Origin: Parafannyhessea umbonata
GTDB taxonomy: Bacteria > Actinomycetota > Coriobacteriia > Coriobacteriales > Atopobiaceae
Reading direction: 5' to 3'
DNA: 64,000 nucleotides
Assembly: GCF_900105025.1 (NCBI RefSeq)
Contig: NZ_LT629759.1
Location: 1,302,001 to 1,366,000 of the forward strand
Position 1 is the stretch's first letter. Each line of letters opens with the position of its first letter. Below are positions 3,548 to 30,958 of this stretch, one piece after another. A program made the position numbers and the translations under genes. A model generated the notes under the pieces. The model was not told where the DNA came from. It saw only the letters and a program-made list of their open reading frames with translations, and made no database searches.

Positions 3548-4258
3548 CTAGGCCACCCTCTCGTTGATTCCCGCGTAGTACCAGCTTGCCGGCGTGTCGT
3601 ACCCCAGCGACTGGTGAATCCTGGCGTCGTTGTAGTAGCCCACGAACTCGGCGACGAGGCGCCCCAGCTCCTTGGGCGTCGAGTACTCGTGTGTCCTCAG
3701 CCACTCCGACTTCAGGGTCCTGAACCACCTCTCCATCAGCACGTTGTCCCTCCAGCGGGCCCTGCCGTCCATGCTCTGCGTGACGCGGTTCGATGCGAGG
3801 AGCGAGACGTAGACGTCCGAGCCGAAGACCGACCCCTGGTCGGAGTTCATGACGGAGGGTGTGCCGTGCTCGGCGAAGGCCCGCCGCACGCACCTGACGA
3901 CATCCTCGGCCCGCATCGTGTCCGACAGCCTCCAGCCCACGATGTAGCGGCTGTGCCAGTCGATCACGGCGGTGAGGTACATGTGGTGGCCACCTATCTG
4001 GACGTAGGTGATGTCCGTCGACCACACCTGGTTGGGGAAGAGGATCTTCTTGCCTTTGAGCAGGTAGGGGAACCTCTTCGAGCGCTTGGATGGTTTGGAG
4101 AGCGAGGGAAGCGGGCAGCAGGGTCGTATGTTCATCTCGTGCATGAGGCTCGTCACGTGCCAGCGGGTGACGTCCTCGCCGTCCTTCCTGAGCTGCCTGG
4201 CGATCTTCCTCGCCCCGTACGCGGGGTTGTCCGCATGGATCCCGTCTATCTTTGCCAT
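3548..4258 (-). CDS. IS3-family transposase OrfB (DDE domain)
   Basis: 236 residues from ATG 4258 with the rve/DDE core: first D in WSTDITYVQIGG, second D in VMNSDQGSVF, E in DNVLMERWFRTLKSEWL. The open frame continues upstream of this ATG for about 40 codons and encodes the usual OrfB N-terminal motif (ITRKRASELLGVPRSSTYYER), which has no start codon of its own. The functional protein is therefore probably made by frameshifting from orfA. The frame relation is +1 (or -2), not the -1 normal for IS3 elements; see findings. Activity is uncertain. Confidence 0.88.
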   Translation of the reverse strand: MAKIDGIHADNPAYGARKIARQLRKDGEDVTRWHVTSLMHEMNIRPCCPLPSLSKPSKRSKRFPYLLKGKKILFPNQVWSTDITYVQIGGHHMYLTAVIDWHSRYIVGWRLSDTMRAEDVVRCVRRAFAEHGTPSVMNSDQGSVFGSDVYVSLLASNRVTQSMDGRARWRDNVLMERWFRTLKSEWLRTHEYSTPKELGRLVAEFVGYYNDARIHQSLGYDTPASWYYAGINERVA

Positions 4259-4370
4259 GAGGCGCTCGTCCTCCTCGGAGGTCTCCTTCTTCTCCCTGCG
4301 CTCGTAGTAGGTGGAGCTTCTAGGTACGCCCAGGAGCTCCGAGGCCCTCTTGCGGGTGATGCCGGCATGC

Positions 4371-27378: not shown

Positions 27379-27453
27379 TGGTGGGCGTTAGAAGATTTGA
27401 ACTTCTGACCTCTTCCGTGTCAGGGAAGCGCTCTCCCCCTGAGCTAAACGCCC
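27379..27453 (-). tRNA. tRNA-Val (GAC)
   Basis: Cloverleaf on the minus strand: acceptor GGGCGTT, anticodon loop CTGACAC giving GAC, T arm with TTCAAATC, CCA encoded at 27379-27381. Likely attachment-site neighbour of the ICE. Confidence 0.95.
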
Positions 27454-27609: not shown

Positions 27610-28884
27610 TTACAGCCCCTGCCCTCCAGCCACGGGAAGCGTCAGCTCCCCCGGCACGCCCGACCTCGGCGGGCGCAGCTCCGGACGTGCGATGATGCCC
27701 CCGCCCAGGCACTCGAGCCCGTCGTAGATGACGGCGCTCTGCCCCGGGGCGACGGTGCGGACGGGCTCCGCATACTCCACAAGCACCGAGGCGCTGCCCT
27801 TCTCGCCTGCGGCACTCTTCTCGCCTGCGGCGTTCTTCTCCCCTGCAAGGGCCTGTTGGGGCGGCGCGGGCGAGAAGAGCGTGACGTGCGCGGGGCGGAG
27901 GTCTCCGGTATGGCGGCTGCGCACGAGGTAGTCGCCGGGCGCCGGGGGCTCGCCGTGAATCCATCGGACGTCCGTGAGCAGGACGCGACGCGTCCAGAGC
28001 GCGGGGCAGGCGGGGTCCGCCGTGGCGTAGACCGTGTTGGTGTCGACGTCCGTGGCGACGACGTAGCGCTTGGGGCCGCCGCCGATGCCAAGGCCCTTGC
28101 GCTGGCCGACCGTGAAGAGGAAGGCGCCGTCGTGGCCGCCGATGACGCGGCCGGTCTCCCACTCCACGATGTCGCCGGCGCGGCGCTCGAGCGTGCTCAG
28201 CAGGAAGTTGCGGATGCCGACGGGGCCGATGAAGCAGATGCCGTCCGAGTCCGGCTTTGCCTCCACGCCGAGGCCGCGCTCCGCGCACATGCGGCGGACC
28301 TGCGCCTTTGTGGGGATGTCGCCTATGGGGAACAGCGTGCGCGCGAGTGTCGCCTCGCCCACGCGCCACAGGAAGTACGTCTGGTCCTTGTGCTCGTCCG
28401 CGGCGCGGAGCAGGTGCGTGCGCGCAGGCATGCCGGGGGCCGCAGCGGGCTCGCGCGTGACGCGCGCGTAGTGGCCCGTCGCGACGAAGTCCGCACCCTC
28501 CAAAAACGCGCGGCGCGCGAACGTGCCAAACTTGACGGTCTGGTTGCACATGACGTCCGGGTTGGGCGTGAGGCCGTGGGCGTAGGCGTCAACCAGGTAG
28601 TCGACCACGGTGGACTTATACTCCGCCTCGCAATCCCACACGTCGAGGTCGATCCCCAGCGTGACGGCGACGCGCTCCGCGTCCGCGAGGTCGTCCGCCC
28701 ACGTGCACTTGAAGCCGGGCAGGTCGCGAGACCAGTTGCGCATGTAGACGGCATGCACGCGATAGCCCTGCTCTTGCAGGAGCGCCGCGGCGAGCGCGGA
28801 GTCCACGCCGCCGCTCATGCCGAGGTAGACGGTCTGGCCGCGTCCGGGTGCGGCGGGCGCGCCGCTATACGTGCTGTTAGGCAT
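27610..28884 (-). CDS. mnmA: tRNA-specific 2-thiouridylase MnmA
   Basis: 424 residues; makes 2-thiouridine at position 34 of Lys, Glu and Gln tRNAs using sulfur relayed from a cysteine desulfurase. N-terminal PP-loop LGMSGGVDSALAAALL, catalytic Cys in TPNPDVMCNQTVKF, second Cys in DSDGICFIG. Start ATG 28884 has GGGGAGG upstream and overlaps the stop of the desulfurase gene, a natural operon. The C-terminal beta-barrel carries an unusual insertion of GEK-containing repeats (GEKNAAGEKSAAGEKG), coded by an 18-bp repeat. Confidence 0.95.
   Translation of the reverse strand: MPNSTYSGAPAAPGRGQTVYLGMSGGVDSALAAALLQEQGYRVHAVYMRNWSRDLPGFKCTWADDLADAERVAVTLGIDLDVWDCEAEYKSTVVDYLVDAYAHGLTPNPDVMCNQTVKFGTFARRAFLEGADFVATGHYARVTREPAAAPGMPARTHLLRAADEHKDQTYFLWRVGEATLARTLFPIGDIPTKAQVRRMCAERGLGVEAKPDSDGICFIGPVGIRNFLLSTLERRAGDIVEWETGRVIGGHDGAFLFTVGQRKGLGIGGGPKRYVVATDVDTNTVYATADPACPALWTRRVLLTDVRWIHGEPPAPGDYLVRSRHTGDLRPAHVTLFSPAPPQQALAGEKNAAGEKSAAGEKGSASVLVEYAEPVRTVAPGQSAVIYDGLECLGGGIIARPELRPPRSGVPGELTLPVAGGQGL
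27799..27843. repeat. 18-bp tandem repeat inside mnmA
   Basis: Three units start at 27799, 27817 and 27835, each holding CTTCTCGCC (the third CTTCTCCCC) followed by TGC. They code for the GEK repeats in the C-terminal domain of MnmA. Confidence 0.8.
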
Positions 28885-30142
28885 CGCGAACCTCCCCAAG
28901 GCCCATGCGGGCCGCCTCCGCGCGGACGACGCGGCAGATGGCGTCCGCCGCATAGTCCACGTCCCCCTCCGTGGTGGGCCGGCCGAGCGTGATCCTGAGC
29001 GAGCCCGCCGCGACGCGCTCCGGCACGCCCATGGCCGAAAGCACGTGGCTCACGCGCATCTTGCTGGCGGCGCACGCGGAGCCCGTGCCCACGCTCACGC
29101 CCTCGCGCTCCAGCAGGATCACGAGGCGGCGCGCCTCGAGCCCCGGGAAGCTCACGTGCAGCAGGCCGGGCAGGCGGTTCGCGGCCTTGCGCGGGCCCGC
29201 GACCACGCACCACGGGAACTCGCGCACCAGGCGCGCCTGCAGAGCGTCGCGCAGCGTGGCGAGGCGACGGCACTCCCGGGGGCGCAGGCGCTCCGCAAGC
29301 TCGAGTGCGCAGGCGAACGCCATCACGCCGGCCACGTTCTGCGTGCCGGAGCGAACGCCGCCCTCCTGCCCGCCGCCGCGCACGAGCGGGCGCAGGCGCA
29401 CGCCGTCGGCCGCGTACAAGAGGCCCACCTGCTTCGGGCCGTACACCTTGGCCGCGGACACCGTCACGAGGTCCGCCCCCAAGGACGACACGTTCACGGA
29501 GCAGTAGCCGGCCGCCTGCGAGGCGTCCGTGTGGAGCAGGATCGGACGCCCTTCTCGCCCGGCGAGGCGGCGTGCGCGCTCCGCCGCCACGACGGCCGCG
29601 ATCTTGCGGATGGGCTGGATGGCGCCCACCTCGCCGTTGGCAAGCGACACGGACACGAGCTCCGTCGCAGGCCCGATAGCGCGAGCCACGTCCGCCGGGT
29701 CCACGCGGCCGTCCGGCCCCACGGGAATGGTGGCGTGGTCGCGCGCGGCGGCCGCCTCGAGCACGCTCTGGTGCTCCGTCGCGGCCACGAGCACCTGGCC
29801 CGATACCGCGGCGATCGCGAGGTTGTTCGCCTCTGTGGCACCGGCGGTGAGCGTGACGTTTGCGGGCCGTGCGCCCAGCACGTGCGCCAGGCGGGCGCGG
29901 GCGTCCTCAAGGTCCACACCGACCGCGCGTGCGGCGGCGTACGGGGCCGATGGGTTCTGGAAGCGCTCGGACAGGTACGGCAGCATGGCCGCCACGGCCT
30001 CGGGCGCCATGGGCGTGGCCGCGGCAAAGTCCAGGTAGACGTCGCGGCGCGGCGCCGGGTGCGTGGACGGCGCGGGCGAGAAGTGCGTGGGCGTTTGCGT
30101 TGTGACCGCCTCCTGAGGACGATGCTTAAACGAAAAGGACAC
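28877..30142 (-). CDS. Cysteine desulfurase (NifS/IscS family)
   Basis: PLP enzyme that takes sulfur from cysteine, here most likely for MnmA, whose gene overlaps its end. The recognisable part runs from VYLDFAAATPMAPEAV: PLP region LTAGATEANNLAI and AATEHQSVLEA, the PLP lysine in LVTVSAAKVYGPKQVGLLY, the active-site Cys in SVGTGSACAASKMR. The start is unclear. The only canonical in-frame starts after tRNA-Cys are GTG 30142, which lies within the tRNA terminator hairpin, and an ATG inside the conserved core. The best ribosome site (AGGAGG, 30114-30109) is followed 8 nt later by ACG at 30100, giving TQTPTHFSPAP. The annotated start is therefore provisional. Confidence 0.85.
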   Translation of the reverse strand: MSFSFKHRPQEAVTTQTPTHFSPAPSTHPAPRRDVYLDFAAATPMAPEAVAAMLPYLSERFQNPSAPYAAARAVGVDLEDARARLAHVLGARPANVTLTAGATEANNLAIAAVSGQVLVAATEHQSVLEAAAARDHATIPVGPDGRVDPADVARAIGPATELVSVSLANGEVGAIQPIRKIAAVVAAERARRLAGREGRPILLHTDASQAAGYCSVNVSSLGADLVTVSAAKVYGPKQVGLLYAADGVRLRPLVRGGGQEGGVRSGTQNVAGVMAFACALELAERLRPRECRRLATLRDALQARLVREFPWCVVAGPRKAANRLPGLLHVSFPGLEARRLVILLEREGVSVGTGSACAASKMRVSHVLSAMGVPERVAAGSLRITLGRPTTEGDVDYAADAICRVVRAEAARMGLGEVRDA

Positions 30143-30160
30143 CTGCCGTTGCAGATGCCC
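30133..30160 (-). terminator. Terminator of tRNA-Cys (copy next to the desulfurase gene)
   Basis: GGGCATCTGC pairs with GCAGGTGTCC (two G-U pairs), followed on the minus strand by TTTTCGTTT. It ends just before the desulfurase ribosome site. Confidence 0.65.
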
Positions 30161-30171
30161 TGTGCGTGCGT

Positions 30172-30245
30172 TGGAGGCGAGACCCGGATTCGAACCGGGG
30201 ATAAAGGCTTTGCAGGCCTCTGCCTTACCACTTGGCCATCTCGCC
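30172..30245 (-). tRNA. tRNA-Cys (GCA), first copy
   Basis: Minus-strand cloverleaf with acceptor GGCGAGA, anticodon loop CTGCAAA giving GCA, T loop TTCGAAT, CCA encoded. Identical to the copy at 30577-30650. Confidence 0.95.
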
Positions 30246-30256
30246 CTGAGATATGA

Positions 30257-30278
30257 AAAAGGCCGGTCGAAACCGGCC
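30257..30278 (-). terminator. Hairpin with T-run between tRNA-Gly and tRNA-Cys (first pair)
   Basis: GGCCGGT and ACCGGCC form a 7-bp stem; TTTTTC follows on the minus strand. It could partly terminate after tRNA-Gly or guide processing. Confidence 0.5.
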
Positions 30279-30289
30279 ATAAGCTCCTA

Positions 30290-30365
30290 TGGAGCGGGCT
30301 ACGGGGATCGAACCCGCGACCTCCACCTTGGCAAGGTGGCGCGCTACCAACTGCGCTAAGCCCGC
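30290..30365 (-). tRNA. tRNA-Gly (GCC), first copy
   Basis: Acceptor GCGGGCT, anticodon loop TTGCCAA giving GCC, T arm GTTCGATC, CCA encoded. Identical to the copy at 30691-30766. Confidence 0.95.
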
Positions 30366-30378
30366 AAGCGCAGGGATT

Positions 30379-30407
30379 AATATACGCGACTCCCCCACCC
30401 TGCGCAA
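30379..30407 (-). promoter_or_regulatory. Promoter of the first tRNA-Gly/tRNA-Cys pair
   Basis: TTGCGC, 17 bp, TATATT on the minus strand, ending 13 bp before the tRNA-Gly 5' end. Confidence 0.75.
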
Positions 30408-30540
30408 GGGGGAGTTTTTTCCAACGCCTCTGCACACAGGTTCTCCACGTTTGGGATTAGGGACCGCGCATGTGCCGCTCCCGGCGACGGCCGGCATGGC
30501 CGTTCTTCTCGCCACGCTAGCGCCCTTACCGCCGTATGGC

Positions 30541-30567
30541 AAAAAGGGCACCCCGTAGGGTGCCCTT
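30541..30567 (-). terminator. Terminator of tRNA-Cys (second copy)
   Basis: AAGGGCACCC and GGGTGCCCTT form a perfect stem with a 4-nt loop; the minus strand ends in a T-run. Confidence 0.8.
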
Positions 30568-30576
30568 CACGTCCGT

Positions 30577-30650
30577 TGGAGGCGAGACCCGGATTCGAAC
30601 CGGGGATAAAGGCTTTGCAGGCCTCTGCCTTACCACTTGGCCATCTCGCC
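30577..30650 (-). tRNA. tRNA-Cys (GCA), second copy
   Basis: Same sequence as the copy at 30172-30245, CCA included. Confidence 0.95.
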
Positions 30651-30654
30651 ATAT

Positions 30655-30679
30655 GAAAAGAGCCGATGTGAACCGGCTC
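30655..30679 (-). terminator. Hairpin with T-run between tRNA-Gly and tRNA-Cys (second pair)
   Basis: GAGCCG and CGGCTC arms, CTTTTC on the minus strand after the stem; weaker than its counterpart at 30257-30278 and different in sequence. Confidence 0.4.
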
Positions 30680-30690
30680 CGATGAATGCA

Positions 30691-30766
30691 TGGAGCGGGC
30701 TACGGGGATCGAACCCGCGACCTCCACCTTGGCAAGGTGGCGCGCTACCAACTGCGCTAAGCCCGC
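30691..30766 (-). tRNA. tRNA-Gly (GCC), second copy
   Basis: Same sequence as the copy at 30290-30365, CCA included. Confidence 0.95.
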
Positions 30767-30779
30767 GAACGCGAGGAAT

Positions 30780-30808
30780 AATATACGTGACGCAGCCGCC
30801 CGATGCAA
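30780..30808 (-). promoter_or_regulatory. Promoter of the second tRNA-Gly/tRNA-Cys pair
   Basis: TTGCAT, 17 bp, TATATT on the minus strand, 13 bp before the tRNA-Gly 5' end. Confidence 0.75.
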
Positions 30809-30958
30809 GCATGAATTTCAAATTTGTTTGCAAGAACCGCGTCGCACGCGCAAAACCGCAGGTACAAGCCGCAAGATATTTGGAATTAAGACTTGAGTCG
30901 CGCGCCTTGGGCCTCCGCATAGTCGCCACGGGGCGCCCCACCCCGGCGCAGGGCGCGC

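Follow-up and report, generated by a model that had tools for sequence, protein, structure and literature searches.

The gene infC, which opens with AUU, is a bacterial gene with a non-AUG start codon. Here we analyze a cysteine desulfurase gene that seems to open with ACG, located in a stretch of 64,000 nucleotides of Parafannyhessea umbonata (NCBI RefSeq assembly GCF_900105025.1, contig NZ_LT629759.1, positions 1,302,001 to 1,366,000), which as a whole is referred to as the window. Start codon usage is given as 94% ATG, 5% GTG and 1% TTG in the accessible part of one study (PMC3305630), and the accessible part of another names ATG, GTG, TTG and ATT as robust starts, with no mention of ACG there (PMC4633059). 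For Escherichia coli, the accessible parts of two papers describe detectable expression from an ACG start, placed in a group at 0.1-1.5% relative to ATG (PMC6925171), and a regulator that was still active with an ACG start, its OFF-state being lowered 31.6-fold (PMC10449621). A natural bacterial ACG start was not found among the literature matches listed (which concern organelles, viruses, eukaryotes, synthetic constructs or unrelated subjects), subscription papers being outside this coverage. As judged from sequence, the ACG of the desulfurase gene is probably a real start codon in use, rare in this genome and common to the genomes of two related gut bacteria, the second being P. umbonata 105184 (locus L033).

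The ACG codon and its surroundings

On the minus strand of the window the order is tRNA-Gly, tRNA-Cys, a terminator-like hairpin, the Shine-Dalgarno sequence AGGAGG (30114-30109), 8 nucleotides and then ACG (30100-30098). The ribosome site, spacing and codon are exactly as described in an earlier note on this DNA. From the ACG the desulfurase frame is open through to the stop at 28877. The features concerned are the following:

28877..30100, minus strand: cysteine desulfurase gene (class-V aminotransferase fold), ACG to TAA, 407 residues (open frame; Pfam Aminotran_5)
30098..30100, minus strand: putative ACG start codon (follows the ribosome site; ACG also at position 145 of L033)
30109..30114, minus strand: Shine-Dalgarno AGGAGG (anti-Shine-Dalgarno pairing -10.3 kcal/mol; L033 -11.2)
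30136..30161, minus strand: terminator-like stem-loop after tRNA-Cys, includes GTG 30142-30140 (fold and shuffle test)
30140..30142, minus strand: GTG in frame but rejected as a start (in L033 out of frame; weak Shine-Dalgarno pairing, -3.1 kcal/mol)
30172..30245, minus strand: tRNA-Cys (GCA) (tRNA search)

Between the upstream stop and the conserved core of the protein, the only canonical codons that the window has in frame are GTG 30142 and ATG 30280. The GTG does lie in the terminator stem of tRNA-Cys, as the earlier note had it, and the 47-nucleotide fold of this hairpin was matched by none of 200 shuffles (z -4.44); that it would be the sole upstream candidate is not correct, given that ATG 30280 is also in frame. 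The latter sits in the spacer that separates tRNA-Gly from tRNA-Cys, and a protein started there would have to be read through tRNA-Cys. In the other direction, the absence of any ATG, GTG or TTG in frame from the ACG to the core was also borne out: the next canonical codon is ATG 30010, within the conserved ATPM stretch of the core itself.

Occurrence in related genomes and within the genome

The homologue search kept 80 of 344 loci. Outside the genome of the window itself, L033 gave the best match (93% protein identity). The earlier note had suggested checking 30098-30100 in close relatives, and had named relatives that use GTG 30142 with conserved N-terminal residues as what would refute its observation; L033 does not bear this out. 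L033 keeps the ACG behind the same ribosome site (AAGGAGG followed by an identical 8-base spacer), and its triplet corresponding to GTG 30142 is out of frame, for which reason this GTG cannot be a shared start. L033 has 62 codons between its upstream stop and the core, not one of which is ATG, GTG or TTG; with both candidates of the window rejected, neither genome has a usable canonical start upstream of the core.

The open reading frames (ORFs) of the window and L033 have equal length without interruption and are identical at 1124 of 1224 nucleotides (100 differ), whereas the leader differs by 1 nucleotide in length. Synonymous divergence (dS) is 0.249 against a non-synonymous divergence (dN) of 0.031 (dN/dS about 0.12); by this comparison the desulfurase frame is intact and under purifying selection. 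An ACG behind the same ribosome site in another genome, assembled separately and at a dS of about 0.25, speaks against a sequencing error, since this would have to have occurred twice. Of the three options offered earlier, an ACG start and a mutation of ATG to ACG can be merged into one fixed change that would now be used, and the ACG of L033 argues strongly against a sequencing error.

The YLDxAAATP stretch of the core was located by pattern search in 79 of the 80 loci (L048 being the exception), 77 of which could be assessed (the upstream stop lies outside the locus in L037 and L090). At least one canonical codon is present between stop and core in 76 of these 77, L033 being the only exception, though a canonical codon upstream of the core need not be used as a start. 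The next relatives, L034 and L035, have an in-frame ATG 13 and 25 codons ahead of the core, respectively, which makes loss of the ATG in the ancestor that the window genome shares with L033 the simplest, and probably the correct, history.

Pairing with the anti-Shine-Dalgarno sequence is stronger at the ACG (-10.3 kcal/mol in the window, -11.2 in L033) than the genome-sample median (-8.5 kcal/mol), and in both genomes the site lies at a working distance before the ACG, as would be expected for a natural start. For the in-frame ATG sites of L034 and L035 the values are -4.2 and -8.2 kcal/mol, and for the rejected starts GTG 30142 and ATG 30010 they are -3.1 and -1.7 kcal/mol.

The genome sample comprised 464,000 bases (the window and 20 further stretches), in which a codon-based gene model made 345 gene calls. 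The starts chosen were ATG (279), GTG (51) and TTG (12), and 3 genes had no candidate. Coding sequence ahead of the first canonical codon was flagged in 6 genes, of which 4 have an ordinary ATG when viewed by eye; the other two are a transposase at window position 4366 and a phage-like ORF of L123. This test missed the desulfurase gene because of the chance GTG. A second test, flagging genes that lack a canonical start preceded by at least 4 of 6 Shine-Dalgarno bases, yielded 25 of the 345: the 3 genes without any canonical candidate, and 22 (including the desulfurase gene) whose candidates match the Shine-Dalgarno sequence at 3 of 6 bases or fewer. The 3 genes are two transposases (rve and HTH_21 domains) and one apparently frameshifted phage-like ORF without a family hit (L123, 16408). 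A second clear non-canonical start was not found in the 464-kb sample, in which the 21 other genes with a weak Shine-Dalgarno match were not viewed singly.

Transposases of the rve/HTH_21 type are made by programmed frameshift. In the transposase at 3551-4366 of the window (HTH_21, rve) coding begins 36 codons ahead of the first canonical start, as in elements of this kind, and the second one (L133:7518-8345) is of the same build, likewise lacks a canonical start and has a run of A upstream. The phage-like ORF at L123:16290-16714 seems to be broken by a frameshift; its second part gave no Pfam match.

Proposed initiation and alternative explanations

We consider it likely that the gene encodes a functional desulfurase whose ancestral ATG has been replaced by ACG, which would be initiated weakly by the ordinary initiator tRNA on an mRNA obtained by read-through from the tRNA operon. 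The data show the sequence, its presence in two genomes and purifying selection, whereas initiation at the ACG, its weakness, the read-through and the function of the product are all things we infer. The change from ATG to ACG would have taken place before the window genome and P. umbonata 105184 diverged. The AGGAGG would position the ribosomes, after which the initiator tRNA (CAU) may pair with the ACG through the first and third bases. A pattern for initiator tRNA, covering the CAU anticodon only, gave a single match per genome in three genomes of the genus (ARAGORN calls it as tRNA-Met in the window's genome), and initiation factor IF3 likewise occurs once in each. With such a tRNA in all three genomes, the ACG is most simply read by the normal initiator with a mismatch at the second base, and the protein should then begin with formyl-methionine. 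Compared with ATG, initiation would probably be greatly reduced, and the above-median Shine-Dalgarno pairing would make up for part of this. No promoter-like site was detected at 30000-30900 by a scan that knows one promoter type only, making read-through from the tRNA operon likely for a gene placed just behind the tRNA-Cys terminator. Together with the overlapping mnmA, the desulfurase would supply sulfur for 2-thiouridine in tRNA.

Several observations weigh against a used ACG start. The Shine-Dalgarno sequence is good yet ordinary (110 of 341 sampled starts are equal or stronger), and its 8-nucleotide spacing is rather long. The ACG occurs in only two genomes, as G001 has the same sequence as L033 over the 1500 bases compared, and at 92% nucleotide identity a match of three bases has no significance alone. 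Within the first 21 codons the window and L033 differ by 3 non-synonymous and 2 synonymous changes, too few to give a selection signal of their own. Finally, the column of the lost ATG is not fixed by the alignment, into which the leaders of L034 and L035 fit poorly.

Selection might have retained the ACG as a throttle, the sulfur donor for thiolation being held low by an extreme start codon behind the tRNA-Cys terminator. Output would then be tied to initiation stringency or to read-through, coupling thiolation to the state of translation; we regard this as unlikely. Less probable still is that the gene, having lost its start, is no longer expressed or has begun to decay. A canonical start is indeed absent, but the two genomes, which have this loss in common, show a dN/dS of about 0.12, 408 codons are free of stops and frameshifts, and the Shine-Dalgarno sequence is retained; for some of the divergence to be older than the loss, the start would have to have been lost in parallel. 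We give even less credence to a shortened enzyme translated from within the core, either from ATG 30010 or from the CTG of YLD: both genomes do have the canonical ATG 30010, but with its poor pairing (a mere -1.7 kcal/mol) it would also delete the YLDxAAATP stretch found in nearly all homologous loci (79 of 80).

It is very improbable that GTG 30142 is the start, for although in frame in the window it has a poor Shine-Dalgarno match, lies within the terminator stem and is contradicted by L033. Just as little can be said for editing of the transcript from C to U as in plant organelles: the ACG is one such change away from AUG, and editing of this kind is described for chloroplasts (PMC9845219, accessible part), but nothing in this organism points to it. 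A sequencing or assembly error for ATG can practically be dismissed, as another genome record, at dS 0.25, has the same codon and nothing was found in favor of an error.

The gene product, its neighbor and known systems

The desulfurase matches Pfam Aminotran_5 over nearly the entire model (positions 1-370 of 371, E 6e-47, 160.8 bits against a cut-off of 21.5). The best NCBIfam models are of NifS/IscS type, all scoring below cut-off (the highest, TIGR03402, with 307 bits against 530.75). Both SAAKVYGPKQ and GTGSACAAS are present in the protein, which we take to be the pyridoxal phosphate (PLP) lysine and the catalytic cysteine motif, respectively. The gene is located directly upstream of mnmA:

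27610..28884, minus strand: mnmA, tRNA 2-thiouridine(34) synthase (NCBIfam NF001138 and TIGR00420 above cut-off)

The NCBIfam scan of mnmA was run on a longer ORF starting at 28953; reading of the sequence points to ATG 28884-28882 as the probable start, overlapping the end of the desulfurase gene. Likewise, a desulfurase gene lies ahead of mnmA in the YrvO-MnmA pair of Bacillus subtilis, part of an abbreviated 2-thiouridine pathway (PMC5372745, accessible part), and by likeness to YrvO the present pair would serve the same sulfur transfer. In contrast to that pair, the start codon here is ACG and the protein is below every NCBIfam cut-off listed.

A tRNA-Val (27379-27453) follows mnmA in the window, L033, L034 and L035, so that the order tRNA-Gly-Cys, desulfurase, mnmA, tRNA-Val is kept. 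Two copies of the tRNA-Gly/tRNA-Cys pair are present in the window (30172-30365 and 30577-30766) and in L034, and one copy in L035 and L036.

Gene finders take ATG, GTG and TTG as the rule, and with this restriction genes that start on ACG will be misannotated, either in their start position or as a shortened protein. If true, a natural ACG start in two genomes would widen the range of start codons that functioning bacterial genes are known to tolerate, and how initiation persists despite a second-base mismatch could be tested on it in a simple way.

As in non-AUG starts of the infC type, a near-cognate codon behind a good Shine-Dalgarno sequence would open a conserved gene; here, however, it is the second base of the codon that is mismatched, and no link to autoregulation of an initiation factor is seen. 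The engineered starts in E. coli (PMC6925171 and PMC10449621, accessible parts) likewise place ACG behind a ribosome site and show low-level initiation, whereas the present ACG is natural and found in two genomes. Chloroplasts, according to the accessible part of PMC9845219, have ACG starts as well as edited ACG, again with ACG in the place of AUG in a bacterial-type translation system, but neither editing nor a machinery for it is in evidence in the present case. The ACG of the desulfurase gene may therefore be placed with the near-cognate starts, already known as a kind, and both regulation and mere tolerance would fit.
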